The notes under the pieces: generated by a model | The model's input: the letters and a program-made list of their open reading frames with translations, nothing else | What the model was told of the DNA's origin: nothing | Database searches by the model: none | Translations under genes and position numbers: made by a program | In this document: positions 16,422 through 63,116 of the stretch, one piece after another | Numbering within the stretch: position 1 is the stretch's first letter | Layout of the letters: each line of letters starts with the position of its first letter | Origin: a virus | Direction: 5' to 3' (one strand) | DNA length: 63,116 nucleotides | IMG/VR virus record: IMGVR_UViG_3300004369_000014 | Coordinates: 1-63,116 of that record

Positions 16422-16440
16422 ACATACGGAGATTAGAGAA

Positions 16441-18399: not shown

Positions 18400-18412
18400 T
18401 TTCGTCTGTTTG

Positions 18413-22020: not shown

Positions 22021-22060
22021 GATATGTCTCCTTTGTGTAGTTGATTACTTACTAACATGG

Positions 22061-22804: not shown

Positions 22805-22806
22805 AG

Positions 22807-25565: not shown

Positions 25566-25594
25566 TATGATACCTCTTCGTCATTTCGTACTTG

Positions 25595-25600
25595 ACTATA
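25595..25600 (-). promoter_or_regulatory. Extended -10 promoter before the helicase gene
   Basis: TGGTATAGT on the - strand, the same TGG-extended form as the one at 11888. It lies in the 86-base gap between the resolvase and helicase genes; predicted start about 25588, 23 bases before the GTG. No -35 matches. Confidence 0.55.
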
Positions 25601-25651
25601 CCACATACTACACGTAAATAGCTGAAGAACAGAAGTTTTTTTGTAGTATGC

Positions 25652-26116
25652 CTATTCTACAAGTTTTCTTGGCACCCAGCCATTCTTAACGGCGTACAGA
25701 AGACCGTGTCGCATCGCGTCCAACGCGTGACCTTCTCCGCCTCTATGCCAATACCCGAGCTTCTTAAGCGCGTCGTTCGGGAACATTCTCTTTGCGTCTG
25801 ATGGAGACTGAAACACGATCTTGTCGATGTCAAGTCCTTCTGAGTTGACAAGATACTTTAGAATCCCAATTTGCTCGAGACTGTACGGCGCCTGCGAGTT
25901 CTTGACCGTCTGGGCGTTGATCGTGAATCTTTCGCACACGACGGCGATTTCTGCTTCGAATATTCTTGCGTTACGCAAGGTGTTGAGTATCGGGACGTGG
26001 TAGTCTTCAAACATATACTCGCCGGAATCGACAAGCTCAGGAGCTTCGCCCTTGTTGTATGTAAAGCTGGCTATGCCGCTTTTCTTACCAGGATCGACAG
26101 CAAGAATTATTTTCAT
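25652..26116 (-). CDS. RuvC-like Holliday junction resolvase
   Basis: 154 residues from ATG 26116, overlapping the upstream stop as ATGA. IILAVDPGKKSG (D8), AVVCERF (E62) and GEGHALDAMRHGLLY (H130, D133) give the RuvC/RNase H-fold acidic residues. The gene resolves branched DNA before packaging. Slightly shorter than bacterial RuvC. Next to the DNA polymerase and helicase as expected of a replication module. Confidence 0.85.
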   Translation of the reverse strand: MKIILAVDPGKKSGIASFTYNKGEAPELVDSGEYMFEDYHVPILNTLRNARIFEAEIAVVCERFTINAQTVKNSQAPYSLEQIGILKYLVNSEGLDIDKIVFQSPSDAKRMFPNDALKKLGYWHRGGEGHALDAMRHGLLYAVKNGWVPRKLVE

Positions 26117-26433
26117 GTCCACACCACCCTCGAGACTCCAGCTCTGCCAAGAATACTTTTGCACTTTTTGCACGGCTCAGACGGAGCTGGAGACCCGTCT
26201 GCGGACACCCTAGCGATGTAGACATTGGAGCCAGACGCTAGAGTTCCGGCGGCGGCTATTGCCGCAAACTCAGCATGAACGTGCGCAGTTCTCCACGAAA
26301 CTCTCGGGTCACCGATCTTCTTATTTGTAGTGATCGAGAGTATCTTTCCGTTGCGAACAACAACGCAGCCGTGTTTATGTCTGCACTTGCTCTTCTTTGC
26401 AGCGTCTACAGCGAGCTCGAGGTACCTGTTCAT
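26113..26433 (-). CDS. Cytidine/deoxycytidylate deaminase-family protein
   Basis: 106 residues from ATG 26433, overlapping the polymerase stop (ATGA). HVHAEFAAIA (H53, E55) and PCKKCKS (C88, C91) are the zinc-binding deaminase motifs; the CDA fold is otherwise minimal. Its substrate (a cytidine nucleoside, nucleotide or RNA base) cannot be told. It is distinct from the larger dCMP deaminase at 28243, so the phage has two. Confidence 0.8.
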   Translation of the reverse strand: MNRYLELAVDAAKKSKCRHKHGCVVVRNGKILSITTNKKIGDPRVSWRTAHVHAEFAAIAAAGTLASGSNVYIARVSADGSPAPSEPCKKCKSILGRAGVSRVVWT

Positions 26434-28256
26434 CCGTACTTGTCGCCCCACGTCTCAAGAGGCCCGTCGATGCCAGCAGTAAGCGGCACCGCCCATCCTT
26501 CAGATGTTGTCATGCACTCTTTGACTGCGTTCATTACCTCGGTGACGTCTTTCCTTGGGGCTTGTAGAACGATCTCGTCGTGCACTGGCACAATGAGAAG
26601 CTCGGTAAGATCCGCTTGATCGAGTTTGACCAAGTTAGCCTTGAACACTTCAGCAGCTCCACCCTGAATTAAGTAATTCACGAGAGTGTACACGCGGTCT
26701 TCGTCACACGGGAGCCGGCGGCCAGTCCAGGTGTAGACGTAACCTTGGCCTTCGGTCTTTAGACGACGCATCCCGATGTCTTCAATCTGTCTTTGGAAGT
26801 ACGCCATTCCCGGAAAGCGATTGTCAAACGCGTCTGAGACTGCGCGCATTTGAGGCTCAGCAACTCCGGCAGTCAGTGCTTGTTTCGCAACACCGGCTCC
26901 GTAGAGTCTGCCGTAAACTGTACCTTTGATCAATCCGCGACGTTTATCTGACTTTGTCATTGACGGGTCGTTGTAGATCTCGCGGCCAATCTCCGTGAAC
27001 GGGTCAGACCCTGTCGCGTCAGCGTGATTGAAAAGATTGATGAGGTTTGGATCGCTTGAAAGACTTGCAAACATGCGAAACTCGACCTGGTCAAGGTCTG
27101 ATGTGATGATGACATGGTCTTCATCTTTGGGGATAAACGCGCGGCGTACTACGTCGTCTCCCTTCGGCAGAGTCTGGAGCGCAGGATTAGTGATCGACAT
27201 GCGACTTGTTCGTGCGCCAAGAGTCTTAACAGATGGATGAACTATCCCGTCTATCGACTCGGTCAGAAAGTTACTGAAATACGTGTTTGCGAGCTTGTCG
27301 GCTTTTCTCTGCTTAAGTACTGTGTCGGCAAGAGCCGAAATTTCCGCGTTGTCGTTTATAGACAAAAGCTTTAGCTGATCTTTAGTGCACGACTTTTGAC
27401 CAGTCGGAGTGTATTCAGTAATTTCAGCACCAAGTGACTCAAACAGTCTGACGAGTTGAACGTTGCTGGTTATCGACACGCCGTTGTACGTGTCTTTAGC
27501 CCATTTCTTTACAGACTCGGTATACGCTGTGAGCTCGTCGTACTTCTTCTTGGAGTACTCGAGATCTACACGTGCGCCGTTGATCTCCATGCGCGTGACA
27601 ATCTTTCTTGCGGCCATCTCGAGTTCGTAGGCTTTACGGTACGGGCCTTCGGGCCCGCACTTATCCCAAAACAGCTCCCAAAGACGAGTCGTCAACACAC
27701 AGTCGAGAGCGCCGTACGACCAGTACGGTTGAAAGTTTGTAGGTACAGTTCCCCATGTCCAACCGTTCTTGACGAGCTCAACGTCAAGAGTTTCTTGTAA
27801 GGCAACAGCACGGCTATCAACGTGCAGCGCGGCAAGACGCTTTAGAGCACCAGAGCCAAGTGGATCAACAACGTGGGCCATAATCATTGTGTCGTGCGCA
27901 CGATGCCAAGGAATGTCCCAGCGTGACTGAATAGCAAACCATCTTGCCTCGAACGCAATGTTGTGACATATCAGCGGGCCGTCAAACTTGTCCATTGCCT
28001 CGTAGAATACGCCTGACCATTCTTCCCAAGGTATTGACCAGCCTTGTTCTCCGTCTCCAACCTGCACAAGACGAAGTCTTCCATGCCACGGCGACAGCGC
28101 GTGATCTCTCGGATTGCCCGGCAACTCGCCTGTTTCTGTGTCGACTGATATAGCGTTGTGAGGTCGACGTTGGCCAAGCCAGTGAATAAAATCTGCAGCT
28201 TTCTGCGAAGTATCAACAAGATGGAGTTGCACGTTTGATAGATCAGCAGTCGCCAT
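26430..28256 (-). CDS. polA: Family A DNA polymerase with 3'-5' exonuclease
   Basis: 608 residues from ATG 28256 (GGAG five bases before; GTG 28262 is possible). SVDTETGELPG (exonuclease I; D39, E41), a polymerase motif A DLDQVEFRMFASL, a motif B helix RRGLIKGTVYGRLYGAG and motif C VPVHDEIV. In the motif B helix the residue that decides dideoxy sensitivity is Tyr, as in T7 polymerase, rather than Phe as in E. coli Pol I. No 5'-nuclease domain is present. It copies the phage genome, with the helicase, SSB and resolvase around it. If hm-dCTP is made, this enzyme must accept it. Confidence 0.95.
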   Translation of the reverse strand: MATADLSNVQLHLVDTSQKAADFIHWLGQRRPHNAISVDTETGELPGNPRDHALSPWHGRLRLVQVGDGEQGWSIPWEEWSGVFYEAMDKFDGPLICHNIAFEARWFAIQSRWDIPWHRAHDTMIMAHVVDPLGSGALKRLAALHVDSRAVALQETLDVELVKNGWTWGTVPTNFQPYWSYGALDCVLTTRLWELFWDKCGPEGPYRKAYELEMAARKIVTRMEINGARVDLEYSKKKYDELTAYTESVKKWAKDTYNGVSITSNVQLVRLFESLGAEITEYTPTGQKSCTKDQLKLLSINDNAEISALADTVLKQRKADKLANTYFSNFLTESIDGIVHPSVKTLGARTSRMSITNPALQTLPKGDDVVRRAFIPKDEDHVIITSDLDQVEFRMFASLSSDPNLINLFNHADATGSDPFTEIGREIYNDPSMTKSDKRRGLIKGTVYGRLYGAGVAKQALTAGVAEPQMRAVSDAFDNRFPGMAYFQRQIEDIGMRRLKTEGQGYVYTWTGRRLPCDEDRVYTLVNYLIQGGAAEVFKANLVKLDQADLTELLIVPVHDEIVLQAPRKDVTEVMNAVKECMTTSEGWAVPLTAGIDGPLETWGDKYG

Positions 28257-28725
28257 TGTCACTCCATATTACGTCAAGTTTGATGCCGCACGCGCGCAGA
28301 TAGTCGAAAACTACTTCAGGCTCGCGATGACGGTCTTCAGGTCTGACGACGCACACAACCTTGGACACTCCAGAGTTGCTGACTAGCTTCGCACACTGCA
28401 TACACGGCGCGCTTGTTACGTACAGCGTTCCGTTTAGAACGCTAGACCTGTCGACATACATCAACGCATTTGCCTCGGCGTGTATCGCCGGACAGGCGTC
28501 GTAGAGATTATCGAGAGCCGATTCTCCACGCGCTCTCTGGCACCAGTTGATACAGTCTCCCTCATGGGGCCAACTGGCCGCTGGCCCATTGTACCCCGTT
28601 GCGCATATTCTTTGGTTTTCTGAAACTATTACTGCGCCGATCTGGGCTCTAGAGCACCTAGATCTTCTACTAACAGTTTCAGCAACGCTCAACCACGTTT
28701 CATCCCACGTTGGTCTGTTGATCAT
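28243..28725 (-). CDS. dCMP deaminase
   Basis: 160 residues from ATG 28725 (GTG 28731 is in frame). AIHAEANALMY (H82, E84) and APCMQCAKLV (C108, C111) bind zinc; RSRCSRAQIGAVIV and ICATGYNGPA are the dCMP-deaminase family motifs. It converts dCMP to dUMP. In T4 it feeds dTMP synthesis; here no classic thymidylate synthase is visible in the window, so host ThyX or ThyA would have to use the dUMP. It overlaps the polymerase start by 14 bases. Confidence 0.9.
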   Translation of the reverse strand: MINRPTWDETWLSVAETVSRRSRCSRAQIGAVIVSENQRICATGYNGPAASWPHEGDCINWCQRARGESALDNLYDACPAIHAEANALMYVDRSSVLNGTLYVTSAPCMQCAKLVSNSGVSKVVCVVRPEDRHREPEVVFDYLRACGIKLDVIWSDNGDC

Positions 28726-28727
28726 TG

Positions 28728-28925
28728 TCACTCGTCATCTTCGTCCGTTACCTCAAGCATCGAGGATATTTCTTCAGTCATTCCCATAAATAGCATTCTC
28801 GCTACTAAGTCTAGCCCATCTCGTCTGCTAAAGCCAGCCTTACGCAAAGTCGTATAGACCTCGTGCATTCCGATAGCGGCTTCTTCCATCGGTGACGCGT
28901 ACTCTTCTTCCCAGTCTTCGCTCAT
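28728..28925 (-). CDS. Hypothetical small acidic protein
   Basis: 65 residues. Acidic ends (SEDWEEEY, EVTDEDDE) around a helical GMHEVYTTLRKAGFSRRDGLDLVARML. Not recognised. It overlaps both neighbours (ATGA at its start; four bases at its end) and is therefore translated with the nucleotide-metabolism genes. Possibly a small adaptor; no evidence beyond composition. Confidence 0.6.
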   Translation of the reverse strand: MSEDWEEEYASPMEEAAIGMHEVYTTLRKAGFSRRDGLDLVARMLFMGMTEEISSMLEVTDEDDE

Positions 28926-29785
28926 TGACTTGCCTTTCGTGCGTTTTTGGCTGCTGCGTCAATCATCACGTCGGCGTACCAAGAAGCATTCTGCGACAAT
29001 CTTGGCAAGATTCTATCATCGGTGACACCGAGAAGGGCGTCAAGAGCCTGCGTCTCTACTTCGTCCCACGACGATCCTTGTATGAAAGGAATCTTCTGGC
29101 TTGAAGAAGTTTTAGTCAAGTTTTCGGCAACTTCGTAATGTTGCTCATAGATATGAAGAGAACCGACATGATGAGAGTACGTCCCAGGCTGAATTCCTAG
29201 AACACTGCACATCGCTAGTTGCACCCTAGTGAACTGAAAGAAATCGTAAGCAGCGCCAAGCCAAACGTCATTCGACCGCATGTAGACGCTCATGTTAAGC
29301 TTTCCGTTGCGAATTCTAAACTGATGAAGAATAGTGCAAGGGTAGTCGCGCTTGTTTGGCTGATTGTCGTACTCCGGGTTCCATATCGTGATGACAGCCT
29401 GACGGGTGTCAGAATCGTTCTTTAACTTGTCGACAGCTTCTTTGTACTGGCCTTTTGTTCTTAGACCGTAGGCTCCGTGAAATATACCGTTATCCTCTGC
29501 GTAGTTTATAAACTGAGGTCCAACGGCGATCACAAGCTCAGGCATAGAAACCCCAGAAAGAAGTTGACAAGCTTCAACTGCACCGATCCCTGGGACGGCT
29601 CCACGGCCAACACCGAGCGGTAACGTCGAGTAGACGTTGTCGATAAAAATTGTCGCGTCTTCAATTTCGCGAGTCTTCATACCGCGTGGAGAGACAGTTC
29701 GTCCGTTACGAAGAACATGGTGCACAAGATCTACGTAGCCGTTTACTCCGTCTTCGATGTGAATAGAGGTTACGGAAGTATCCAA
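28922..29785 (-). CDS. ThyA-family enzyme, probably dCMP hydroxymethylase (T4 gp42-like)
   Basis: 287 residues. A thymidylate-synthase fold: DSDTRQAVI, catalytic C150 in YPCTILHQF, MRSNDVWLG and VGSLHIYEQH. In thymidylate synthases a fixed Asn lies 31 residues after the Cys (C146 and N177 in E. coli) and selects dUMP. Here residue 181 is Asp. T4 dCMP hydroxymethylase has Asp there (C148, D179), and also shares Cys-Thr after the nucleophile, MRSNDV and VGSLH. So the enzyme most likely hydroxymethylates dCMP. The start is TTG at 29785 with AAAGG before it, inside the end of the kinase gene. Alternative: a thymidylate synthase with altered specificity. Confidence 0.8.
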   Translation of the reverse strand: MDTSVTSIHIEDGVNGYVDLVHHVLRNGRTVSPRGMKTREIEDATIFIDNVYSTLPLGVGRGAVPGIGAVEACQLLSGVSMPELVIAVGPQFINYAEDNGIFHGAYGLRTKGQYKEAVDKLKNDSDTRQAVITIWNPEYDNQPNKRDYPCTILHQFRIRNGKLNMSVYMRSNDVWLGAAYDFFQFTRVQLAMCSVLGIQPGTYSHHVGSLHIYEQHYEVAENLTKTSSSQKIPFIQGSSWDEVETQALDALLGVTDDRILPRLSQNASWYADVMIDAAAKNARKASQ

Positions 29786-30771
29786 TTTACGTACCTTTCG
29801 TCGATGCCGTACGCGTAGCTTTGCATCGCTTCTCCGTACAGCTTTTTGTCAGCATGATGAAATCTTCTTACGTATTGCGGATGCGGAAAAACAATGTACT
29901 CCTGTGCGCACAGAGCTTTAGTCTTGACGTGCCGATCAGCAAGTCTACCAAGAACGATAATCTTTGGCCAATGCAGCACTTCAAGAAGAATGTCTAGTCT
30001 TTCGCCGGAAAAATCTTCAGAGTTGATAATTCCTACGTCTCGCCAGAGAGGCTCTGGAAGAGCGTTTAACAGATAGTCCCCAGAGTTACCGCCGACTGGC
30101 ATGAACGGAAGTATCGTCTCGGTCGGGTCTTTTCTCTTATCGCCAATAAGAAGAACTCTAGGGCGCGCTGGGCCGATGTACTCTGGAAACGCGGCGATAC
30201 CTGCCGCGTCATCGGCCCGCTCTGCCGCGGCAGTAATGATCGCAGACGCAACACTTTTAACGTACTTCTCTCCGTCAGGCACCTCTATCTTTGCCTGAAT
30301 AGAGTGAGTTTTTGCCTGTGTAGACTCGTAAAGAGACAGAATTTCTTCCATTTCTTCGACGTCTACAAAATCATCACCACGAGAAAGAATTCTCTTCTTG
30401 ATTACGTCAAGTGGCTGATAGACCCAGAACTGGGCCATACCGCGAGACGCCATAAACAGCTCAACCCAGCGCCAGCCGGCGATGCCCAGAAGGCCATAAC
30501 CGTCTGTGTTTGTCTGCGGGCGCTTGAGCTTGGCGTAGGTGCACTCGCCCCAGTGCCATCGATCCGCTACGGCAAGTTCCTTAGTCCAGTCGATGCTTTC
30601 AATATCAACCGCGTACTCGTGCAGCACCCAGCGACGAGTTAGCTCCTCGGGTCTACCCTTGTGAAACTCGTGAATACGAGAAGCAGGTGACTCAGAGCGT
30701 AGTTGCTCTTTTATCGCCGCGGCTATTGAACTTTTGCCAGAAGCGTCGGTGCCTTCAAGAACAATGAACAT
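29770..30771 (-). CDS. Deoxynucleoside monophosphate kinase fused to a UDG-like domain
   Basis: 333 residues. Residues 1-185 are a thymidylate-kinase-type dNMP kinase: FIVLEGTDASGKSS (P-loop 7-15), ADRWHWGE (the DR motif) and a lid SRGDDF. Residues about 198-310 resemble the uracil-DNA-glycosylase superfamily: VLLIGDKRKDP, PFMPVGGNSGDYLLNAL, a mid strand IIVLGRLADRHV and FPHPQYVRRF (the HP-containing end motif). No catalytic Asp/His pair is certain, so the domain may bind rather than cut. A kinase able to phosphorylate hm-dCMP (T4 gp1) would be the next step after the enzyme encoded downstream. Confidence 0.75.
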   Translation of the reverse strand: MFIVLEGTDASGKSSIAAAIKEQLRSESPASRIHEFHKGRPEELTRRWVLHEYAVDIESIDWTKELAVADRWHWGECTYAKLKRPQTNTDGYGLLGIAGWRWVELFMASRGMAQFWVYQPLDVIKKRILSRGDDFVDVEEMEEILSLYESTQAKTHSIQAKIEVPDGEKYVKSVASAIITAAAERADDAAGIAAFPEYIGPARPRVLLIGDKRKDPTETILPFMPVGGNSGDYLLNALPEPLWRDVGIINSEDFSGERLDILLEVLHWPKIIVLGRLADRHVKTKALCAQEYIVFPHPQYVRRFHHADKKLYGEAMQSYAYGIDERYVNWILP

Positions 30772-49742: not shown

Positions 49743-51689
49743 TCAGTATTCGATCGCAGCAGCCGTGGCGCCACCTGTCGTGTCACGGAGGGCAGCAGCC
49801 ACTCCGTTCACGCTGATGGTCGATGTCACGACGAGCGACTCGATACCAACCTTGGCGATACCCTCGAAGGTTTCAACGAACATCTTGTAGTCGTTGGTGC
49901 CGACGAGTGTCGAATCACGGATGATTCCGAGGTCCAAGGTTCCGCCGTCGAGGAACAGGAACGTTCCTTCGGAGAACATGTACCACGTGAAGGTATCGCT
50001 GAACTCGTTCATAGCTCCGGTGCTCTGCGCGCTAGCGACGTTGAGGTCGGGGCTGAACGTGATGTTTACACCGCGAGCGGCGAGGTAACCCTCGACTTCG
50101 CCGTAGGCGTTGAGTGTGCTGTCACCAGGCATCGACAGAGCGAGGTCCGCAACCATGGCGTCCTTGATCCACGAGGGAGCGAGGACTCGGAGCGGCATGT
50201 CGGCGTCAAGACGGTGACGGCTGCGGTACGCCGAAGCGGCGCGGCCAACCTGAACGAGGAAGTCACGAGCAACACCGATGAGGCTTGTTGACGAGATAGC
50301 CGTCGAGCCGGCTGTGAGCTTCGAAGCCAAGTACTGCTCAGCCTCACGGGCGTGCTGAATCAGAGCAAGCTCGTTGTGACGAGCAATCAACTCTGGGTAC
50401 GCACGTGTCATGAGGTTACCGAACTGGAGCTGCAGGGTGACAGCGTCGGTGGCGACGGTTGTCTCTGTAGCAGCAGCAACGGTGAGGCTTGCCTTGGTGT
50501 CGGTGCCCGGGTCGGTGTCGACGACGTTGGTCCACACGCCTACGGCGTCAGCGTAGCTGCTCAGCACCGGCGGAACGATGTAGCGGATACCGCCACGGTC
50601 AGCCTGGAAACGGGGCAGCGAGTCACGGATCGGACGAACCGTGGTGCCGAAGCCGAAGATGTCGTACTTGACTTCGAACGGTGTGCTGTGACCACCAGAA
50701 GCGACGATAGCCTCGGGGCTAGCGACATTCTTGATCTTCACGATGTTCGAGTCAGTGTCCTGCGTGAGGATTCTGTCTTCGTTGTACTTGGTTGTAATCG
50801 ACGCGACGATGTGCTGTTCGCCGTCGCCACCCTTTACACGGCGGAGACCGTGCAAGCGGGAGGCCATCGCCTCGGCAATTTCTTGGTAGTTAGCCATCTG
50901 AGCGCCAGCCGTGTAGCCAGGGATGTCGGCACCAGCGGTGATAACCACCGGAGCCTGAGCTGCCTGGATGTTCGGGCGACGGTCGGCTGGAGCCTGGACT
51001 TCTACGTCCTGGCCCTCTTCTGCGGCGGCAGTCATTGGTGCCTCCTGACCTTCCTGCTCATCTTGAGCGATTTCTGTGGTTGTTGAAAGTTCGGCATCAA
51101 CTTCAACCTCGACTGAGGCTTCTGTTGAAACTTCTGGCGTCTCTTCTTGCGCAGCTTCGACAGCAAGTTCTTCAGCCGGCGCCTCAACTGCAACTTCTTC
51201 AACAGCGAGTTCCGCTGTCGCCTCTGTTTCAGTTGCTGCGTCTGTGGCTTCGACTGCTGCCTCTGCTTCTGCGACTACTTCTGTAACTACTTCTTCGGTT
51301 GAAAGCTCTGAAACCTCTTCAGTAGCAGTTGACGCTTCAGACATCTTCGACTCTTCCTCTTCCATGGTGGGAGCAGCAGGAATTTCTTCCTCCTTCTCTT
51401 CCTCCATAGCTTCAGGAGCCTCAGCATCCTCTTCCATCGCACCCTTGACGCGGTTCGCGGCCTCTGCGGCGCGGGCAGCAAGCTCTTGAGCTAGTGCCTG
51501 GCGACGCTTCGACTCTCCACGAACGGTGTCGAGCATGTCAGCAAGAGTTGTCATCTTCTCAACTGTTTCTGGAGTTGGATCTTCGCCCTCAACCGTTTCA
51601 AACTCCGAAACAATCGCGCTCTGAAGTTCGACGACTTCGTCGTCAGTCAGATCTGAGATCGTGTCGAGCATTTGCTTGATACGGTCCAC
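49743..51689 (-). CDS. Major capsid protein with long acidic N-terminal region
   Basis: 648 residues, GTG start with GGAGGAGGGACA. Residues about 1-85 form a coiled coil (QMLDTISDLTDDEVVELQSAIV), 85-235 are extremely acidic with Glu/Ala/Val/Thr repeats (EEVVTEVVAEAEAAVEA), and about 240-648 are the HK97-fold core: GFGTTVRPIRDSLPRFQADRGGIRYI, AREAEQYLASKL, RHRLDADMPLRVLAPSWIKDAMVADLALS. The N-terminal part is like a delta/scaffold domain normally cleaved by the prohead protease, encoded by the polyprotein upstream. A 7-bp hairpin sits in its 5' leader. Confidence 0.9.
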   Translation of the reverse strand: MDRIKQMLDTISDLTDDEVVELQSAIVSEFETVEGEDPTPETVEKMTTLADMLDTVRGESKRRQALAQELAARAAEAANRVKGAMEEDAEAPEAMEEEKEEEIPAAPTMEEEESKMSEASTATEEVSELSTEEVVTEVVAEAEAAVEATDAATETEATAELAVEEVAVEAPAEELAVEAAQEETPEVSTEASVEVEVDAELSTTTEIAQDEQEGQEAPMTAAAEEGQDVEVQAPADRRPNIQAAQAPVVITAGADIPGYTAGAQMANYQEIAEAMASRLHGLRRVKGGDGEQHIVASITTKYNEDRILTQDTDSNIVKIKNVASPEAIVASGGHSTPFEVKYDIFGFGTTVRPIRDSLPRFQADRGGIRYIVPPVLSSYADAVGVWTNVVDTDPGTDTKASLTVAAATETTVATDAVTLQLQFGNLMTRAYPELIARHNELALIQHAREAEQYLASKLTAGSTAISSTSLIGVARDFLVQVGRAASAYRSRHRLDADMPLRVLAPSWIKDAMVADLALSMPGDSTLNAYGEVEGYLAARGVNITFSPDLNVASAQSTGAMNEFSDTFTWYMFSEGTFLFLDGGTLDLGIIRDSTLVGTNDYKMFVETFEGIAKVGIESLVVTSTISVNGVAAALRDTTGGATAAAIEY

Positions 51690-51810: not shown

Positions 51811-52383
51811 TTATGTCAATAACCGCAGAAGAGTGCTCATCTCAGATGAGACCTCAGACTGCGAGAAAACGTCACTTCCAGACTTGTACGACGCGAGTTT
51901 TTTATTTACCTCTGCGGCGTCTTCCTCGCCGATCTTCTCCTCGACCCTGGTCATCATGTCTTCGATGAGGTCCCGTAGAACTGGCGGTAGATCACTAAAC
52001 TTGACCTTCTCAGTATCGGCACCAAAAGGGAGAGGTAGGTTCGCTAGTGCCGTGCCAAGCAGTCTAGCTGATTCTCTAACATTTTCAATTGATTTTGGGT
52101 TCAATCCACCTGCGTCTAGCCGATCCAGCACGGCTTTTAGCTGATTTGCAGCGGTAACAGCCGCGCTGTAGTTTCCAGCGTTTTCTAGATTCTCGATCTC
52201 TTCTACTCGCTGCACGGCGTTTTGCAGGCCAGAGACTCCAAGGTTCTCCTTCAATCGAGCAAGAACTACTCGAAACTTACCCTTGGCATCGCGAGGTTGA
52301 TCTACGCCTGACGTGTAGATCGTGTTTTCGCGGTCATACTTCGGCGCTGCTACAACTGCTTTTGGATTCTTGGAATTAGTCAC
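51811..52383 (-). CDS. Unassigned head-cluster protein (scaffold-like)
   Basis: 190 residues, GTG start overlapping the polyprotein stop by eight bases. Helical, with heptads (ALARLKENLGVSGLQNAVQRVEEIENLE; NAANQLKAVLDRLDAGG) and a DLIEDMMTRVEEKIGEEDAAEVNKKL helix. Basic N-terminus. Position between protease polyprotein and capsid suggests a scaffold or head-assembly helper. No family known to me. Confidence 0.55.
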   Translation of the reverse strand: MTNSKNPKAVVAAPKYDRENTIYTSGVDQPRDAKGKFRVVLARLKENLGVSGLQNAVQRVEEIENLENAGNYSAAVTAANQLKAVLDRLDAGGLNPKSIENVRESARLLGTALANLPLPFGADTEKVKFSDLPPVLRDLIEDMMTRVEEKIGEEDAAEVNKKLASYKSGSDVFSQSEVSSEMSTLLRLLT

Positions 52384-55300: not shown

Positions 55301-56800
55301 AATACGCATCCTGTCGTCGTCGGCCGGCATCAAGTTCTGTTGACGCTCGCTCATGACCCAGGCTGGGAAGTCGCTAATGACCTGCTGTAGATCGCCGGAC
55401 GTCAGAGCCGGCAAGCCATTCGGCACGTAAGCGTTCGGCCTGTCAATCGGCGCACGGGGCTGCGCAAGAATACCTGATGTATCGAGCGGCGTGTCGAATC
55501 TGTTAGACGGCACTTCGGCGATAGCAGTAGGTGAAAACGTATCTGCGCCTTCGGTTCTTCTTGCATCAACGTTCTCTACAGACCCGTCGTCGTACTTCAC
55601 ACTGACCGTGCCGCTGTCTGGGTTAATGCTCGTAATGTTCCCGGTCTTCGACGCGTTTCCGTCGACTACTACTCGTGAGCCCATCTTCGAGAACTTGCCA
55701 CTCTTGTCTCTGACCTGACGTCTTGCCTTCTGTGACCGCTCTTCTGGAGTGTACTCGCCGTCTTCTGGGTCTACACCACCTTCGCCTGCAGCAATTAACG
55801 TAGAGTCGACGACTACCCAGTCGATTTCGTCTGCCGCATCAGCGACAAGATTTGCTTCTTCTTCGTCAAGATCACCGACAGAAACCGAGCTAAATGGTTT
55901 TTCCTGGAGGTGAGCAGACAGAACAAGAGCCGAGTTAGCATCAATTAAGATGTGATGCTTCTCTACCTTGTCGTACGGATCGTCGAGTGAGCGATCGTAT
56001 GTGGCAATGTCGCTGTCGACATGGCCAAGGTCGTCCCACGAACCATCGTCCCAGACAAACACGAGACCCTCTGGGTCTATCATGTACAGTCTGTCTATAC
56101 CGCTCCCATCGAGACGAACACGTGCCGCAAATTCCGGCGCGAACCCAGTTTCACTACGTGCCCTAGCGATCTCGAAGGCTTCCGTCCGTGAACTAAACAG
56201 ATTTGAGTTTGAAAAAGTATCGCCGTACTCATGAGAAGCGGAAGCCTTAACACCTTTTTTATTCTCGCGTTCGACGATTTGTTTTGCCCATCGCCACGCC
56301 GGGTCTCCGCCCCACAGCGCCCATGCAATTCTCCCGTTCGAGGGAAAACCGTCTTGGCCCGGCTTGTAGCCCTTGGCTCTCTTATCTACCTCATGGCGAG
56401 GAAAATACTTAGCGATGTGACGAACTTTATTGATGCCGATCTGCCCGCCTTTTGCAAGAGTTCTTGCCGTGTTTAGGCCGACTGGAGTTCCTCCGCGCTT
56501 ATGCTCTTTTCTCCATTCAAGCGCGCGTTTCGCCTCTTCTTGCGCCGCCTTTGGGATAGTGTACATGCGTCCCGCCGAAGCTGTGACGGTTTCTATAGAC
56601 AGATCTGTAAGAGAGCTTGCTGCCAGCTCAAGATGAATGCGATCGCCATCACCAGTCGGGCGCGCCCACGGTAGATACGACGACAGGTCAGAAAGAAGAC
56701 CAACGTCGTCGATCATATTTGTCGACTTGTTGACCGTTACAGCGCGTATACCGTCGGTGTACAAGGCATAGTTTTCGGCTTCACCGTGTAGAGAAATCAT
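52376..56800 (-). CDS. Giant head maturation protease polyprotein
   Basis: 1474 residues with several modules. Residues 100-185 (GLNTARTLAKGGQIGINKVRHIAKYFPRHEVDK ... GRIAWALWGGD) and 690-770 (GGLDRNRGKAEKLRRYW ... MGPRAKGYCALRHKE) are modules I recognise from capsid-region proteins of actinophages. About 820-960 is the HK97-like prohead protease: SDGHDG with His near 867 and GVSADL with Ser near 913. Residues 1040-1180 (AAWNQDHIGMSYGTRPPRSRSKYAYFHTG ... GEDAFGIWVAGALRP) are another conserved module. A DUF6582-like basic region (1275-1345) and a Cys-rich end (C-x2-C ... GYC) follow. It should cleave the capsid delta domain. Most phages encode these as separate genes. Confidence 0.85.
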   Translation of the reverse strand: MISLHGEAENYALYTDGIRAVTVNKSTNMIDDVGLLSDLSSYLPWARPTGDGDRIHLELAASSLTDLSIETVTASAGRMYTIPKAAQEEAKRALEWRKEHKRGGTPVGLNTARTLAKGGQIGINKVRHIAKYFPRHEVDKRAKGYKPGQDGFPSNGRIAWALWGGDPAWRWAKQIVERENKKGVKASASHEYGDTFSNSNLFSSRTEAFEIARARSETGFAPEFAARVRLDGSGIDRLYMIDPEGLVFVWDDGSWDDLGHVDSDIATYDRSLDDPYDKVEKHHILIDANSALVLSAHLQEKPFSSVSVGDLDEEEANLVADAADEIDWVVVDSTLIAAGEGGVDPEDGEYTPEERSQKARRQVRDKSGKFSKMGSRVVVDGNASKTGNITSINPDSGTVSVKYDDGSVENVDARRTEGADTFSPTAIAEVPSNRFDTPLDTSGILAQPRAPIDRPNAYVPNGLPALTSGDLQQVISDFPAWVMSERQQNLMPADDDRMRIQPYRDSVEAKMPGDNAPPTQKSDYLKDLEEKSGKTLYTEDGRQHPLLQDFFKKKENNLWYSPITSAAEPAEEPGTDGVGEELTPETSDVEPMHLAIVSPDDPSAVMDLVSIVPATSNTTSPMTFKREDGKWVKDTQILSDLKSATPPPVVALDDGSYTDVLEQVDGAMTSSGYQVFDLDAKLLELYLADINPLSAAGGLDRNRGKAEKLRRYWLFGRGALKIRWNTPGDWTRCYRHLRKYMGPRAKGYCALRHKEATGVWPGSKYNVGKKKKQGRRGIRGSSYDNLAVGEESHVLAFARIRAALHDQTESEAMVSGGEIRNGSRFSIPLVIPEETETGDGRVFKKDSISIRELPLPLLWQLKTSDGHDGSVVVGRIDHMERTENGIGNAYGVFDTGSYGKEAERMIREGFIRGVSADLDKFEASEEADDEDEASKKDKIGGGKIKVDKARVMAVTIVPKPAFEECKIYINEDGENEVFDQQEDVMENVPDGVYIDNVDDADAQSLVACGMIASSIPTVPPAEWFADPKLKQATPLTVDDFGRVFGHIAAWNQDHIGMSYGTRPPRSRSKYAYFHTGVLRADDGKDYPVGQLTLAGGHASLEASAADAAKHYDDTGSAIADVHAGEDAFGIWVAGALRPSASPEQIRALRASAPSGDWRPIKGQLELVAVCQVNVPGFPIARARVASGQVYALVAAGAMTLAKMKTDPLRDFSSRLEELEIKTGVRQDPTVLSAQAEEARAKFAALREEKQAELQAKADELSSRVRSTEPYDSLGYISMRTRKKLAAEGKALPDGSYPIRNIEELKDAIQAYGRSKPSKRALVRRHIMKRARGLRRADLIPDKWKSAGLIDDEIVDDIKARVASAQTAVEGGDSPKALADALIATAGVIVAEERDLANALIEIANKYGKFNEDDTGIWAGYESAAENENAEYGVTCANCMLYDGGSSCKIIAAEVEPMGYCRFALIPDGIVKKRD

Positions 56801-57504
56801 TATTTACCTCTACCAGATTGTACATCATCTGTAATAGGTCCACCAACAGCCCAGGCGTCACACGTTCTGCTCGCGGCGCACTTGAAGTCGAAGGCCTCGC
56901 AGTACCCGAGTTCGGCAGCGACTATCGAGTCCCACGGATCTTCAGCCAACGACTGAGAATCTAGACCGTCAGCGATGCAGTTCTTCATCTCTGTAGTGAC
57001 GATGAAAAACACACAGTTTCCGCACGTGCTTCTTCTGGCCTCATCGGCGCTGACGCTCCACGTGTCGGCGCGCTCCTGCCAGTACTCGTCGTTCGGTTCC
57101 TTCGGGTTGAGCGGCCCGTAGTTTGCCACGTCGATCGCGCGCTTGCGATTCTTAAGGTTCAGTGCGATGTCGCTCGTTGGCGGCGGGCATTCCTGTGATT
57201 CAGCGGCTGCCGTCACGGTGGCAGGTCGCTTTCTCTCGAGATCGTCGTATTCGCGGATGTAGTCAACGTCGACGAACTCGATCGAGTACTTAGGATCGTC
57301 GAAGTCGAGCACGAGAGTGCCGCTGACGCGCCACCACGAACCATTGTCGCGAACGTACATCGAGTTCGTCTCGGACGAGCTATATACTAAATACTCGACG
57401 TTGCCCGTCTCGAGGTTAGTGACCGAGTATAGGTCGTCCTCGTTCTCTAGTTTCTGCGGCCATACGCTTCTTACAGCCGTCTCATCTACCTCAACGTTAG
57501 CCAT
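56800..57504 (-). CDS. Cys-rich head-region protein
   Basis: 234 residues. The second half NYGPLNPKEPNDEYWQERADTWSVSADEARRSTCGNCVFF ... GYCEAFDFKCAASRTCDAWAVGGPI matches a Cys-rich module that I remember from marine phage genomes; six or more Cys could bind zinc or an Fe-S cluster. The first half (ENEDDLYSVTNLETGNVEYLVYS) is a small beta domain. A similar Cys pattern ends the polyprotein. The TAATG overlap with the polyprotein indicates coupled translation. Role unknown, probably virion or head assembly. Confidence 0.65.
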   Translation of the reverse strand: MANVEVDETAVRSVWPQKLENEDDLYSVTNLETGNVEYLVYSSSETNSMYVRDNGSWWRVSGTLVLDFDDPKYSIEFVDVDYIREYDDLERKRPATVTAAAESQECPPPTSDIALNLKNRKRAIDVANYGPLNPKEPNDEYWQERADTWSVSADEARRSTCGNCVFFIVTTEMKNCIADGLDSQSLAEDPWDSIVAAELGYCEAFDFKCAASRTCDAWAVGGPITDDVQSGRGK

Positions 57505-57510: not shown

Positions 57511-57852
57511 CTATCCTCGCTTTGCTTCCTGTAGAGCGGCCCATGCAGAACCATCACTCTCTTGTATAGCTCTTATTTTATATTGAACTTCGCGACTGGA
57601 GAATCTCGCGGAGCCTTCTTTGTCGTCGAAGACGAGCGAGCCACCTTCGTCTATCTCGTACTCGATCGCGTTGTAGAACCCTTGGGCGACTACCTTTTCT
57701 CCGTCTTGGTTGATGTTCAAAAGCCGCGTGATGACCCTGCGCAGTCCACGAGCCTCTCCTGAGAGGCATTCGAGAATCGCCGGCTCGCCGAGAAGATTTC
57801 TACCAATCAGTCCTTTTTCGCTATCTTCGGGCGCAAGAACCAGTTTTCTCAT
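57511..57852 (-). CDS. Hypothetical protein in the head cluster
   Basis: 113 residues from ATG 57852, overlapping the giant gene's stop as ATGA. RKLVLAPEDSEKGLIGRNLLGEPAILECLSGEARG then a beta-rich VAQGFYNAIEYEIDEGGSLVFDDKE. Not recognised. It lies between the giant helicase gene and the Cys-rich protein, all read leftward. Confidence 0.55.
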   Translation of the reverse strand: MRKLVLAPEDSEKGLIGRNLLGEPAILECLSGEARGLRRVITRLLNINQDGEKVVAQGFYNAIEYEIDEGGSLVFDDKEGSARFSSREVQYKIRAIQESDGSAWAALQEAKRG

Positions 57853-60800
57853 ATCGTGCCTCCTTCCTTTCCGTACGAGCCGAGGTTTGGTTTCCACTCG
57901 TTAGGATCTTTGATCTCTCTTGGAAGAACAAAAAACTCGTTTACTGGTCTGCCGTTGATCTCAGTTACGCCTCGGCCGTGCGCTTCCTTAAGAAGAGCGT
58001 CTCTAAGGACTTTAGATACAAAGACCTTACTCGCTCCAGATAGCGGCAGGTGATCTCTGATCGTCAGTTCGTACGAGCTCGGAACCAACCTGTCAAGATA
58101 GCTCGTTCCTTCAGGCTTCGCGCCGTAAAGATCACTGTAGTTCGACCACACGTCGAGTCTTCGAAGAACCTCGATCGTGTCGTCGCCTTCCCACACAAAC
58201 TCTACGTCTGTCCCACGTTTGATGTCTCCTTCAAATGTGGTCTTAGAGAACCAATTTTTCTCTGGTTTTAAGTACACGTAGTTTGCTCCGCCTGTAGCCA
58301 TGTCTTCGATAAACGACTGCCCTCTGAACTGTGATCCGTTGCTGAATCGCTTTACCGTTGAGAGCAGCGCGAATTTTTCGTCGGTTAGCTTGTCTAAGAA
58401 GCCTGCGGCCCACGGCTCTACGTCCGCGTCAAACGCTGACTCCGGTCTGCTGTAATACGAGTGTGAGAGCTCTTGTACTCCGGTCTCTCTTGCAATCGCT
58501 CTGGCGGCTTCTACGGGCATCTTTATCTCGGCCATACCGTACGGAGTTGTCTCGATGGTGACTTCACCAGCGATCGAGACCCCCAGTCGATCCTCAACCT
58601 CGGCGGCCGCGTATTCAGCGGTACCTGGCTGAGTTTCTACGGTTCTTTCGGTCCTACCACCGAACGTTATAGCAAGTTCCTTTTCTGTCATTGACCGCAG
58701 GTCTGACTCTGTCGACGGCCTATTAGCTCTGACGCCGACCGCCTCAAACGCGTCGGCGATCGCGAGATCGTCCGGGTAGTCTGAGAACGTCACGGTCACG
58801 GATCTATCGAGCGACGTTGCTGACGTCGGCGCAAGAGAGGGATCGAGGCGCGAGTACCCTAGATACGTGTCAGTTGGCTCAAGAACCGTGACGATGAACC
58901 GGCCGTCTGGGTCGGTGTACGTCGAGATGTCTCCTGTGTCTTCAGACACCCTGTAGTCCGAGTCTAGTTCGACAATTCTTCCTTTTTCGTCTACAGATGA
59001 CTTTCTAAACGATATCTTCTGACCGTTCTTTCTCGTCCACGGTAGCTCCTGCGTTTTTGAGTTTTTGTTTATCAAGCTCTTTAGCTTTGAGTACGCCTCA
59101 GTCGAAAGAATAAACTTCATCCGGAGCCTTTCGTCTCCGTCCGAAGATCCAGAGGTCTTGATCACGCCGAACGAAACCTGCATTCTTTCGATGTCCGGTC
59201 CATCAACCATCGACTGCATCTCGACTGCCGGCGTGTTGCGCACAAGATCGATCGCCTCACGTACCGGTAGCGTTGCTGACAAACCGGCGCCCTGAAGTGG
59301 CGCTGCCCATGGGGACTCGGGGGACTCGGCCCCCGAAGGGGCCTCAGCTTTTGGGCGGTCTGCCTCTTCTCCAGACCACTCTTCTTCTCGAGCCTTCTCC
59401 TCGATGTTCTCGCGAAGAGCCTCCGTGGTTCCGGCCTTAGGCTCGCCCGCCGCGTCGCCTCCTCCGTCTGAGTCAGGACCGTCAGGCGGCTTGACCCCAA
59501 CGGGACCTTCTCCGTCGTCACCACCGTTGCCAGATCGTTCTTCGAACAAGGCAAGCTGCTCTTCGTACTTCGGAGGCTTTCTCTCTCCGTCCTGCTTCTT
59601 CGACATATCAATCCACGGAGAGTTGTCGTCGTCGTCAGTGATCACAGTAAGAGTACTTGTGCCCTTTGAGTCGATGTAGGTACGTGGGCCCCATTTCTTC
59701 TTCTGCTTTTCTGGCAAAGTATCTGGATCGCGGTGATCGACATCTTTCAAGATATAGACGTTGTTCCATCCGCCGCTCTTGTTGTACCGTACGACCGTAC
59801 CGGCGTACCCCCACTTGTCTCTGACTCTCATGCCGGGGGTGATGAAGACTCCATTCTTGTCTAAGCCCTTGCCGCTCTTCTCCGGTGGTAGGTCCTTACC
59901 AACAAGAATTCCTGACTCCGCCGACCTATCGATGACTCTTCTTGCATCTCTAACCATGTCAGCAAAGTTATCGTTCATCGCGCGATCGCTCTTCGACAGG
60001 CCCTTAGCTTCTCTAAACGCTGTCTCGATCTCGATTAGCTGGTCAGCAGCCTCGTCAGCAGTGATGTCTCCGTTCTTGAATCTTTCGATGATATCGACGG
60101 CCTTCTGAAGTTCCTTAGCCGCCTTCTTCTCGGCAGGGTCTCCGAATTCTAACGAGTCGTCAATCTGCTCTACGATAAGGTTAAGTTCGTCGTCAACTCT
60201 TTCTTCGTACGACTTGGCCGGCGACTTAGACGGGACGTTTTCTGTTTGAACAGAAACGTCTTGACTACGCTCAGGAGCGTCGACTGTGACAAGAGCGCTT
60301 GCCTCTCCCGGAGCGTACGCGTCTGGCGTCTCCGCGGTGCCTGACGGGCCAGGCGGAGGCGGAGGGATGTCACTTGGCAGATCTACCGAAGGCTCGTCTG
60401 CTGCCTCCGGCGCACCTAACATGTCGTCGTCGCTAGTGTAGTCATACACCCAGTCAAGAGCGCCTGGATCCAATCTTTTCTTAGCGCGAGTAACTGCAAC
60501 GTAGTCAAGCTTGAGCTCTTCCGGCGCCGGCATTGTGGCCTCGCCGGTCTCTTTGTCGATTCTTGGCCCCCAGAAGTCTCCGCCGATACGAACGCTGTCC
60601 CACTCGAGACCCTTGGATCTGTGAGCAGTGGTCACCACGACGTCGATCTTCCTCGAGTCTGCAGCAGACGGGCCGCCCATCGCCTCTCGGAGGCCATTAA
60701 GTGCCGCCAAGCGAGACTCATCAGTCTTGTACGACTTATACCACGTCTTCGTCTCTGGCCGCCACTTGAAGCCTACAGCCTTCGCCGCTTCCCTGTTCGG

Positions 60801-63116
60801 GTACATGCTCTTTCCAGTTAGACGAATCTCATCGCCGACTATCTCGTATTGAACACCGTCGACTAGATCTCCCGACGCTCCGGAGACTCCGGACATTTCT
60901 GCGAGCCCGCCTGTTTCTCCAACACCCGCGCTCGGCGCGACGCCGTCTTCGCTGCTCTTGTAGATGACAAGTCTGTCGAGCATCTCGTCGACACCGTCAA
61001 ATCCGATGTCGTCGATGAGATCTAGAAGCTTTCCAACCTTGCGGTTTTCTCCGCTTTCTACGTCCTTGACGAGCTCGTCCCATGACGAGTACGGTGCGAT
61101 ATCGTCGTGAATCTTTCTCGGTCGAGTTGACGGCGACGCGCCAGACTGGAGCCACCTTGCTGACTCGTTGAAGGACTTTAGGTCGTCCTTGTAGTTCTTA
61201 GTTACTCCAACTACACGACCACGGCTGAGTTCGCTGAAGATCTCTTTGATCGCGCCGGCATTTGTTCGCACGAGAACTGCGTCGGCATCTTCCATTGACC
61301 CTGAAGGAAGAATCTCTCCGTTCGGGCCAGCTCCCTCGATCTTGTCCTTCGACCCGATCAGCGTGAGGAACCTGTTGCCCATGCCGGCAACCTCGGGACC
61401 GAATCTCCACGACTTCGTCAGCGGAAGGTCGTTTGGCGCCTCGATGCCGTCGAGCTGGTCGACAGCGCCGCGGAATCCGTAGATCGCCTGGTTGCTGTCG
61501 CCTACGTAGACGACCTGGATGTTCTGATCGCCGATGACCTTGCCGAGCACAGGGTTGATGTCCTGTGCCTCGTCGAAGAAGATGACGTCTGCTCCGTACG
61601 TAACACCGGAGTCGGTGCGGCTAAGGTCGGGGCGTGACAGTGCCCAGATCTTAGTTAGGTGACTGTTCGTAACACGGAGCACTCCGTCTGGGTCGTTAAT
61701 GTCTTTCCACCATGCGTTCGCCCACTCGAGCATTTGCGGCGTGACATTGTCGAACGAGAAGTGCTGCGGTCCGATCGCGTCGTCGGCACTGATCGTGAAG
61801 TTGTTGACAGCGTTGCGGATTTCCTTGACGACGTCGGCTGCCGATAGCACTTGCTCGGGATCATCAGGATTTCTCACTCCGGTGATGCCGAAGTTCGCCG
61901 CGACGTCCTTGATCTTGACCAGTGCGTTCTTGTTATTCATCTTCGCGCGGATCTTGGGGTCGCTCGCTCGATACGCGATCGAGTCGGCAGTTCTCGACTC
62001 GACGTTGCCCGGCATCTTTGCGTCGGCCTCGAGCTGAATCGACTTGTTGAACGCAACGTAGATGATTCGCTTGTTCGGCTGCTCCTTCTGAAGTCGACGA
62101 GCGATCAACTGAAGAGTACTGGTCTTGCCGGTGCCGGCAAGCGCGCGGGCAACGGTGTTCTCACCCGTCATTACGGCGTCAACGATCGCTCGCTGCTGCT
62201 CTGTCGGCGGGAACTTCTCGTCGGCGTACGGGTCCTTGACGTCGACGCCGTCCTTGTCAACGCGGTCGATGTTCGACTGTTGAGCAGACGGAACGTCTTC
62301 GGTGTCGACCGGCTCGATGATCGGAGCGTTGACGCGCTTGATGAGATCGTCGACGCTCGGAACGTCGCACGGGCCTTCGTTGTTTCCAACAGCCGCGGTG
62401 ATTCCGGAGCCGCCGCAGTTCCACGCCGCGGCAATCGCCTTCGCTGCCTCGTACTCGGCAAGATCAGCCTTGTACTGCTCGAGCTCCGCCTGGTAGAACG
62501 CACTCTGCGCGGCGTCCTTCTCGAACGAGCCGTCGACATCAAGAATTGTCGTCGGAGTATCGGGATTGTCGACAGCCCGGGTCAGCATCGCGTCGATGAT
62601 GTTCCACGACGCCTCGGCATCGGCGTCAGCGCGGTGCCAGTCGGGAAGGTCTACGCCGAGGAACTCGGCGACCGGACCAAGACTGTTCGACGCGCGGCGC
62701 TTGCCGTCAGAACCGACCTGCATCGGGCCGATCGGCTTCTTGGCTGACCACTTCGGAAGACTGCCAGCGGCGATGTCCTTCGAGTCGATCGTGCCGGCGA
62801 TGTCGAGCTCAAGACCTTGCTCGTTGAGCGTTCTTTGAAGAACCTCGAGATCAAACGGAACGTACTGACCGCCAAGAATTGGCGACTCTCCGGCGAACTC
62901 GATGAACTTCTCGTGTACCTCGCGCATCGACGGCTGAGACGTCAGCCACTCGTCGGTGACCGGTGACCCGTCCATCTGCTTGAGGTTGTCGCGAGACCAC
63001 TTCGTCATCGGTGTCTCGGGGTTCATGTAGACGTTGAACCGATCGACGACCTTGCCGTCTCGAACGCGAACGGCGCCGAGTTGAATCGGACGGTTCAGTG
63101 CGTCCGGCTCGTCGTC
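57849..63116 (-). CDS. Giant exonuclease-helicase protein of the head cluster (5' end cut by window edge)
   Basis: The frame is open to the right edge: 1755 residues are visible and no start is seen; the first in-frame ATG, 63026, lies inside a conserved domain. Numbered from that Met: the upstream 30 residues plus 1-150 are a DEDDh (DnaQ-like) exonuclease (IQLGAVRVRDGKVV; GQYVPFD; HRADADA). At 273-545 is a UvrD/Rep-type helicase: ALAGTGKTST, FFDEAQDINP, YVGDSNQAIYGFRG. After a linker, 737-785 resembles DUF5710, and 799-850 has TTAHRSKGLEWD and DYVAVTRAKK. Then come about 350 disordered, acidic and Pro-rich residues, and several unassigned C-terminal domains. A helicase-nuclease in the virion gene block may be packaged and injected; that is inference. 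Confidence 0.85.
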   Translation of the reverse strand, partial: DDEPDALNRPIQLGAVRVRDGKVVDRFNVYMNPETPMTKWSRDNLKQMDGSPVTDEWLTSQPSMREVHEKFIEFAGESPILGGQYVPFDLEVLQRTLNEQGLELDIAGTIDSKDIAAGSLPKWSAKKPIGPMQVGSDGKRRASNSLGPVAEFLGVDLPDWHRADADAEASWNIIDAMLTRAVDNPDTPTTILDVDGSFEKDAAQSAFYQAELEQYKADLAEYEAAKAIAAAWNCGGSGITAAVGNNEGPCDVPSVDDLIKRVNAPIIEPVDTEDVPSAQQSNIDRVDKDGVDVKDPYADEKFPPTEQQRAIVDAVMTGENTVARALAGTGKTSTLQLIARRLQKEQPNKRIIYVAFNKSIQLEADAKMPGNVESRTADSIAYRASDPKIRAKMNNKNALVKIKDVAANFGITGVRNPDDPEQVLSAADVVKEIRNAVNNFTISADDAIGPQHFSFDNVTPQMLEWANAWWKDINDPDGVLRVTNSHLTKIWALSRPDLSRTDSGVTYGADVIFFDEAQDINPVLGKVIGDQNIQVVYVGDSNQAIYGFRGAVDQLDGIEAPNDLPLTKSWRFGPEVAGMGNRFLTLIGSKDKIEGAGPNGEILPSGSMEDADAVLVRTNAGAIKEIFSELSRGRVVGVTKNYKDDLKSFNESARWLQSGASPSTRPRKIHDDIAPYSSWDELVKDVESGENRKVGKLLDLIDDIGFDGVDEMLDRLVIYKSSEDGVAPSAGVGETGGLAEMSGVSGASGDLVDGVQYEIVGDEIRLTGKSMYPNREAAKAVGFKWRPETKTWYKSYKTDESRLAALNGLREAMGGPSAADSRKIDVVVTTAHRSKGLEWDSVRIGGDFWGPRIDKETGEATMPAPEELKLDYVAVTRAKKRLDPGALDWVYDYTSDDDMLGAPEAADEPSVDLPSDIPPPPPGPSGTAETPDAYAPGEASALVTVDAPERSQDVSVQTENVPSKSPAKSYEERVDDELNLIVEQIDDSLEFGDPAEKKAAKELQKAVDIIERFKNGDITADEAADQLIEIETAFREAKGLSKSDRAMNDNFADMVRDARRVIDRSAESGILVGKDLPPEKSGKGLDKNGVFITPGMRVRDKWGYAGTVVRYNKSGGWNNVYILKDVDHRDPDTLPEKQKKKWGPRTYIDSKGTSTLTVITDDDDNSPWIDMSKKQDGERKPPKYEEQLALFEERSGNGGDDGEGPVGVKPPDGPDSDGGGDAAGEPKAGTTEALRENIEEKAREEEWSGEEADRPKAEAPSGAESPESPWAAPLQGAGLSATLPVREAIDLVRNTPAVEMQSMVDGPDIERMQVSFGVIKTSGSSDGDERLRMKFILSTEAYSKLKSLINKNSKTQELPWTRKNGQKISFRKSSVDEKGRIVELDSDYRVSEDTGDISTYTDPDGRFIVTVLEPTDTYLGYSRLDPSLAPTSATSLDRSVTVTFSDYPDDLAIADAFEAVGVRANRPSTESDLRSMTEKELAITFGGRTERTVETQPGTAEYAAAEVEDRLGVSIAGEVTIETTPYGMAEIKMPVEAARAIARETGVQELSHSYYSRPESAFDADVEPWAAGFLDKLTDEKFALLSTVKRFSNGSQFRGQSFIEDMATGGANYVYLKPEKNWFSKTTFEGDIKRGTDVEFVWEGDDTIEVLRRLDVWSNYSDLYGAKPEGTSYLDRLVPSSYELTIRDHLPLSGASKVFVSKVLRDALLKEAHGRGVTEINGRPVNEFFVLPREIKDPNEWKPNLGSYGKEGGTI

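Follow-up and report, generated by a model that had tools for sequence, protein, structure and literature searches.

To our knowledge, the loading of large enzymes into the phage head and their role in the first minutes are poorly known outside T4 Alt, P1 DarB and the virion RNA polymerases. Polyvalent proteins were defined by Iyer, Burroughs, Anand, de Souza and Aravind in 2017 (PMC5512222). P1 DarB is grouped with Ulx, is encoded beside the portal and the prohead protease and was found in the virion head; a reporter is carried into the head by its 30 N-terminal residues, and the protein acts after injection, while no consensus packaging signal could be found for the P1 Dar proteins (PMC9024508). 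The stretch analysed here (the window) is the 63,116-nucleotide (nt) viral contig IMGVR_UViG_3300004369_000014, positions 1-63,116. The subject is the open reading frame (ORF) at its right edge, which encodes a DnaQ-like exonuclease, a UvrD/Rep-like helicase and a probable DarT/ADP-ribosyltransferase (ART)-like end. The ORF is taken, with a probability of roughly 0.78, to be the C-terminal stretch of a giant polyvalent protein that would be produced along with the head proteins, enter the head by means of an N-terminal signal and be injected together with the viral DNA. The gene context and the precedent of P1 DarB point to virion presence and injection; virion carriage with action on entering DNA, the lead of an earlier sequence-only reading, is among the best-supported readings. 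L-numbers (L005, L016 and others) are labels of the compared loci.

Comparison with polyvalent proteins and P1 DarB

Like the published polyvalent proteins, the giants are very large chains of unrelated enzymes encoded near phage virion genes, with ART, kinase and helicase modules. At least two unrelated activities are joined in one chain: the window fragment contains DnaQ, UvrD and DarT-like domains, and its relatives add WYL, kinase, Nudix and ART-like modules. The gene lies near virion genes, in the order portal-(Dps)-giant-protease-capsid. The domain combination and gene context fit the published definition (PMC5512222), as the sequence-only reading had suggested. Some differences were also found. 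DnaQ is not mentioned in the main text of PMC5512222, and UvrD appears there for plasmids only; moreover, the ARTs described there belong to the Tox-ART-HYD2 clade and the kinases to a truncated Ser/Thr type, whereas the fold matches of the window family are DarT-like and HipA/CtkA-like. A zincin-like metallopeptidase (HExxH) domain is common but not obligatory in polyvalent proteins (PMC5512222). A regular-expression search found no HExxH in the window fragment (its N-terminus is missing) or in the giants of L005, L015, L016, DSL-LC01 and Atuin; the Racecar giant has an HExxH-type THEFGH at residue 2601, near the C-terminus.

P1 DarB is likewise a giant helicase protein encoded beside the portal and the protease. 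DarB combines a methylase with an SNF2 helicase of superfamily 2 (SF2); whereas the window protein combines DnaQ, a UvrD helicase of superfamily 1 (SF1) and an ART-like domain, and neither a methylase nor an SNF2 domain was matched in the window fragment, L005 or L016. Polyvalent proteins are already known (compare P1 DarB); the new elements, as far as the literature covered shows, are the DnaQ-UvrD pair, the DarT-like end and a motif shared with the scaffold and protease proteins. A literature search that covered few subscription journals and preprints found no description of a DnaQ-UvrD giant among the head genes, of the DarT-like end or of the shared motif.

The window ORF as a fragment of a giant protein

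The minus-strand frame runs through 1,755 codons with no stop and is open at the right contig edge; a frame this long would arise by chance with a probability of about 1e-36 at this base composition. Full-length relatives of 4,611 residues (L005) and 5,188 residues (L016) were found. The L005 giant, from a viral contig, contains a counterpart of the exonuclease-helicase part at 60% identity, and the window fragment starts at its residue 2,128. By this comparison, the ORF covers no more than about the last 45% of a longer chain. The full window protein is estimated at ~3,600-3,900 residues by comparison with L005, L016 and L097, which would place ~1,830-2,130 residues, together with exonuclease motif I (FDYETTG), beyond the contig edge. 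The incompleteness of the ORF had been recognised from the sequence; the extent of the missing part had not. A circular contig that could supply the N-terminus was ruled out, as tblastn found no piece of the giant at the left end; the portal and Dps genes were also not found in the window contig by tblastn.

Exonuclease and helicase domains

Pfam matches in the ORF include RNase_T (E 1.4e-6, residues 7-173), UvrD-helicase (2.7e-9) and UvrD_C (5.8e-7); the PHROGs matches are the DNA helicase phrog_1967 (E 2.1e-79, residues 275-883) and the polymerase exonuclease subunit phrog_192 (E 1.4e-17). Both databases agree with the earlier prediction of a DnaQ-like exonuclease and a UvrD/Rep-like helicase in this frame of at least 1755 residues. 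Alignment with 9 relatives showed that exonuclease motifs II (FD) and III (H..D) are present in the window; motif I (D-x-E) falls past the contig end and is present in L005, L015, L016, L097 and L113. The helicase motifs are intact and in order (Walker A AGTGKT, DEAQD, GDxNQAIY, SWRFGP, TAHRSKGLEW and VAVTRAKK), so that all the SF1 UvrD/Rep-like hallmarks were found (Walker A, DEx(Q)D, motif III, TxHxxKGLEW and motif VI VAxTRA). A small insert is located at residues ~735-810.

The helicase shares 41.6% identity with that of Arthrobacter phage Racecar and 35.5% with that of Arthrobacter phage Atuin. A maximum-likelihood tree placed the helicases from 15 giants and from 2 plasmid giants on one side and 6 stand-alone helicases of phages on the other, with support of 95/96; this is moderate evidence, as only a selection of rows was used and the tree has several long branches. 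The grouping agrees with the report of UvrD helicases in giant polyvalent proteins encoded on actinomycete plasmids (PMC5512222). The actinobacterial plasmid giants WP_328384361 (5,177 residues) and WP_328491297 (4,453 residues, near an annotated 'phage portal protein') have UvrD helicases on the giants' side of the tree, with 32-39% BLAST identity; their other modules are not shared at the BLAST level. The helicase clade connects phage head proteins with plasmid transfer proteins. On the Streptomyces zaomyceticus plasmid NZ_CP107934.1 (L121), an annotated phage portal gene is followed by a 4,453-residue UvrD giant, and this plasmid is probably a phage-plasmid.

Probable C-terminal DarT/ART-like domain

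The C-terminal domain was modelled from a nine-row alignment, with a predicted local distance difference test score (pLDDT) of 71 and a predicted template modelling score of 0.76. The first four Foldseek matches of the last 200 residues of the model were all DarT structures. In VIA-align the first seven matches of the same model were DarT, followed by RNA 2'-phosphotransferases and other ADP-ribosyltransferases. A BFVD fold search with the model gave nothing at E <= 0.001. Pfam DarT matched one relative with E 0.0011, and a six-frame search placed it at the C-termini of the giants in L117 (E 1.1e-5) and L016 (E 0.007). Arg1590 and Glu1683 are invariant in 9 of 9 aligned rows and, by position, are presumably equivalent to the catalytic pair of DarT. 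Because of the fold matches, the independent Pfam support and these two invariant residues, the last domain is called DarT/ART-like, a fold that is probable on sequence and model. Its identity to DarT is ~10%, and no DarG antitoxin was seen, although none was looked for. The sequence-only reading had left the C-terminal domains unassigned; they include this probable DarT/ART-like domain and residues 1282-1464, where only a weak fold resemblance was obtained. A Cet1/CYTH identity for this region is not claimed, the VIA-align matches being weak (Z up to 4.9).

Modular architecture of the giants

The giants have conserved ends and a variable middle, with modules in different mixes. The repertoire comprises an N-terminal region (~330 residues), WYL, an ART-like region, a HipA-like kinase, DnaQ, UvrD, Nudix and the conserved C-terminal domain, which is the last or nearly the last part of the chain. 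DnaQ and UvrD are both present in the window, L005, L015, L016, L097 and L117, and in a diverged form in L018 and L022. UvrD is found without DnaQ in Racecar, Atuin, L017, L019, L020 and L021, and DnaQ without UvrD in L104 and L113; neither is present in Actinomycetia phage DSL-LC01, L106, L107, L111 and L118. The DarT-like domain also occurs in giants without DnaQ or helicase (L111 and L118).

The DSL-LC01 giant (WJZ48510, 3,289 residues, annotated 'hypothetical protein') shares the N-terminal 330 residues (48%) and the WYL, ART-like, kinase and C-terminal regions, with flanks matching L005 residues 1-325, 1207-1995 and 3210-4411. The WNCG...GPC linker is retained in this giant although the exonuclease-helicase is absent there, and the Cys motif possibly marks a module boundary. 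The helical and probable SH3/KOW-like segment is also conserved in L005, L015, L016, L097 and DSL-LC01. Racecar gp78 and Atuin gp71, both annotated 'DNA helicase', occupy the same gene position and have the N-terminal RD motif described below and a related helicase; no DnaQ, ART or kinase modules are recognisable in them by BLAST against L005.

Nudix (PF00293) scored above the Pfam cut-off in L016. The kinase assignment is based on conserved residues and on fold matches to CtkA/HipT (best E 1.8e-4, from a weak model). The ART-like and kinase region of L005 was folded from 4 rows, which gave a weak model (pLDDT 53) with clear fold matches for the HipA/CtkA-like kinase half only; the middle ART-like region (residues 1541-1725) was assigned by eye. 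A PDB sequence search with the kinase, ART-like and C-terminal profiles gave no convincing match. No host was assigned, because a scan of genome contigs with the N-terminal region gave only a single 19-residue match. In the L015 contig (IMGVR_UViG_3300017747_002675), a second giant of 1,932 residues (L109:10045-15843) lies directly behind the first, forming tandem polyvalent proteins; it has an RD motif and a kinase-like domain and ends in the same DarT-like domain.

Gene neighbourhood

In close relatives with complete flanks the gene order is portal, an optional middle gene, giant, protease-containing protein, scaffold-like protein and major capsid protein. The sequence-only reading had placed the ORF between capsid-protease genes and the right edge, and in the window the protease, scaffold-like and major capsid genes indeed lie just downstream (Table 1). 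The same slot is found in the cultured phages Racecar, Atuin and DSL-LC01, with giants of 2,709-3,289 residues, and giant multi-enzyme proteins also occupy it in many metagenomic contigs. Since the three isolates show the same order, the slot is not an assembly artefact. Relatives of the giant are available in cultured Arthrobacter phages; no paper on the virion proteins of Racecar or DSL-LC01 was found in the literature covered.

The L016 portal (652-2376), middle gene (2373-3044) and giant (3041-18607) overlap by 4 nt, therefore they are probably co-expressed, which suggests a single operon. In L117 (IMGVR_UViG_3300032288_000087, 10223-15766), one protein of 1,847 residues combines the head protease, a Dps/ferritin-like domain and the scaffold, which are separate genes elsewhere; this fusion supports the view that the slot genes make the head interior. 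The middle gene, where present, is Dps/ferritin-like or DUF5824-like. A Dps/ferritin-like gene lies between the portal and the giant in L005 (2501-3604; Pfam Ferritin E 3.5e-15), L097, L104, L106 and L107, and its product is possibly a packaged DNA-binding protein.

The RDxxG[KR][FW] motif

The motif R-D-x-x-G-[KR]-[FW] (RD motif) has xxMGG and a beta-rich segment behind it in most cases. In giants with a complete N-terminal region it is located at residue 13-19 or ~195-218; whereas the diverged L018 and L021 gave no regular-expression match. In Racecar gp78 it reads RDKNGRW and lies within the first ~60 residues, and the L121 plasmid giant has RDSKGRF near its N-terminus. The protease-containing proteins, the scaffold-like protein and the product of the DSL-LC01 gene between portal and giant have the motif as well. 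All three motif proteins of DSL-LC01 are encoded among the portal-to-capsid genes; in Racecar the motif occurs in two of the four genes of this interval, compared with one gene elsewhere (gp166). About 0.7 matches would be expected across three proteomes under shuffling, and the enrichment P values (~1e-4 each, the Racecar value computed without counting gp166) are descriptive only. The RD motif is a candidate head-packaging tag or scaffold contact, and it offers a concrete packaging hypothesis; if true, the N-terminal tag could also serve to bring foreign proteins into the heads of actinophages. Racecar gp166 (L013:11081-12013, 310 residues), outside the head cluster, has two tandem RDSKGRF copies at its C-terminus and may be another packaged protein.

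Proposed function and alternatives

In the proposed mechanism, the giant would be made together with the head proteins and probably packed into the capsid via the RDxxG[KR][FW]-MGG segment and the rest of the conserved N-terminal region, which would lie beyond the window edge. It would then be injected with the genome and act in the first minutes. The most likely use of DnaQ-UvrD is as a translocating 3'-5' helicase-exonuclease on DNA ends or single strands at entry, which might process or clear the incoming genome ends before the phage replication enzymes are made; the phage's own DNA is only moderately favoured over host DNA as the substrate. The DarT-like domain would modify host macromolecules or DNA using NAD+. 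A narrower version, in which the helicase-exonuclease and a DarT-like DNA ADP-ribosyltransferase act jointly at entry after delivery by an RD tag shared with the scaffold and protease proteins, is speculative and should be regarded as doubtful.

Several observations weigh against the proposal of a head-packed, injected giant. The N-terminus of the window protein is outside the contig, and the motif was picked by eye before counting, in homologous proteins that are not independent. A strictly head-specific RD motif was rejected because of the two copies in Racecar gp166 and the variant RGADGRF in Forza gp78. The DnaQ-UvrD pair is not essential to the slot, because some giants there lack it. For the DarT-like domain, no member scored above the curated Pfam cut-off, and the VIA-align Z values (6.6-7.7) are in a range that possibly reflects only a common arrangement.

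Known DarT toxins modify thymidine in single-stranded DNA. Nuclease, helicase and DarT-like domain in one chain would be a coherent DNA-attack set, and the giant might be a head-packaged weapon against the host chromosome: the helicase would open the DNA, the exonuclease would degrade it, the DarT-like domain would ADP-ribosylate the single strands, and host replication would stop. This is the alternative that survives best, yet it is unlikely; there is no sign of how the phage would spare its own DNA, the combination is not obligatory (as in L111 and L118), and the DarT-like domain may be specific for either DNA or protein.

The sequence-only reading also suggested protection against RecBCD-like host enzymes, here a counter to RecBCD/AddAB-type or other end-acting defences in which the protein would occupy or process DNA ends. 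The joining of a UvrD-type helicase to a nuclease recalls the helicase-nuclease logic of RecB/AddA, and plasmid polyvalent proteins with UvrD have been proposed to act on transferred single-stranded DNA (PMC5512222). However, no homology to RecBCD inhibitors was found and the window nuclease is of the RNase_T/DnaQ type rather than the RecB fold, so this explanation appears somewhat less probable still.

DnaQ and UvrD are classic replication and repair enzymes, and the closest families of the ORF are a DNA helicase and a polymerase exonuclease subunit; the protein might therefore be a replication or recombination protein merely located in the structural cluster and active late, during normal replication. 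This plain replication role is disfavoured and quite improbable. The replication genes, expected elsewhere (22000-30000) by the sequence-only reading, were found at 22-30.8 kb and comprise Sak4, a Cas4-type exonuclease, a separate DNA helicase, DNA polymerase, dCMP deaminase and thymidylate synthase, so that the phage already has a helicase, a polymerase and an exonuclease at 22-28 kb. Racecar likewise has separate helicases and exonucleases in its replication module. Moreover, the giant-borne helicases separate from the sampled stand-alone helicases of phages, and distant phages keep the domains in the portal-protease slot, in one chain with ART-like, kinase and Nudix modules. A structural or DNA-packaging protein with inactive relic enzyme domains, as the slot and the conserved ends with variable middles might imply, is very improbable, since the helicase motifs and the visible DnaQ residues are intact in the window and its relatives and one helicase clade is retained across diverged giants.

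Other features of the locus

The features of the giant gene and its neighbours are listed in Table 1. Both linkers are rich in D/E and P/G/S/A, and their composition is in line with the disordered acidic linker noted earlier.

Table 1. Features at the right end of the window
Feature	Position	Strand	Basis or remark
Visible C-terminal portion (1,755 aa) of the giant polyvalent protein; 5' end lost at contig edge	57849..63116	-	
DnaQ-like (DEDDh) 3'-5' exonuclease domain, ORF aa 1-190	62547..63116	-	RNase_T, phrog_192, alignment with 9 relatives
Conserved Cys-containing linker, aa ~210-260, WNCG...GPC	62337..62489	-	
UvrD/Rep-like SF1 helicase, ORF aa 289-891	60444..62252	-	Pfam, PHROGs, motifs, tree
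Acidic Pro/Ala-rich linker, aa 893-985	60162..60440	-	Composition
Helical segment and probable SH3/KOW-like domain, aa 985-1165	59622..60164	-	Fold by eye only
Second acidic linker, aa 1165-1262	59331..59624	-	Composition
Domain, aa 1282-1464	58725..59273	-	Structure model; triphosphate-tunnel (Cet1/CYTH) likeness weak
Probable DarT/ART-like C-terminal domain, aa 1536-1736	57909..58511	-	Alignment, model, fold and Pfam searches
Downstream ORF, 128 aa	57511..57897	-	No family match (Pfam, PHROGs)
Conserved head-slot gene 'gpX', Cys-rich	56800..57504	-	DSL-LC01 homolog annotated high potential iron-sulfur protein
Protease-containing head protein, 1,474 aa	52376..56800	-	RDKSGKF motif at aa 364
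Scaffold-like protein	51811..52383	-	RDAKGKF motif at aa 31; L117 homolog fused to protease and Dps
Major capsid protein	49743..51689	-	phrog_777, E 2.3e-81

Similar Cys-rich stretches (CxNC...C...YC) occur in both the protease-containing protein and the adjacent gpX product, which raises the question of whether these head proteins may bind zinc or an Fe-S cluster. Low-complexity repeats of GGKNGGK and AGRTAGN are present at the opposite, left end of the contig, in the minus-strand reading of window 1-350.

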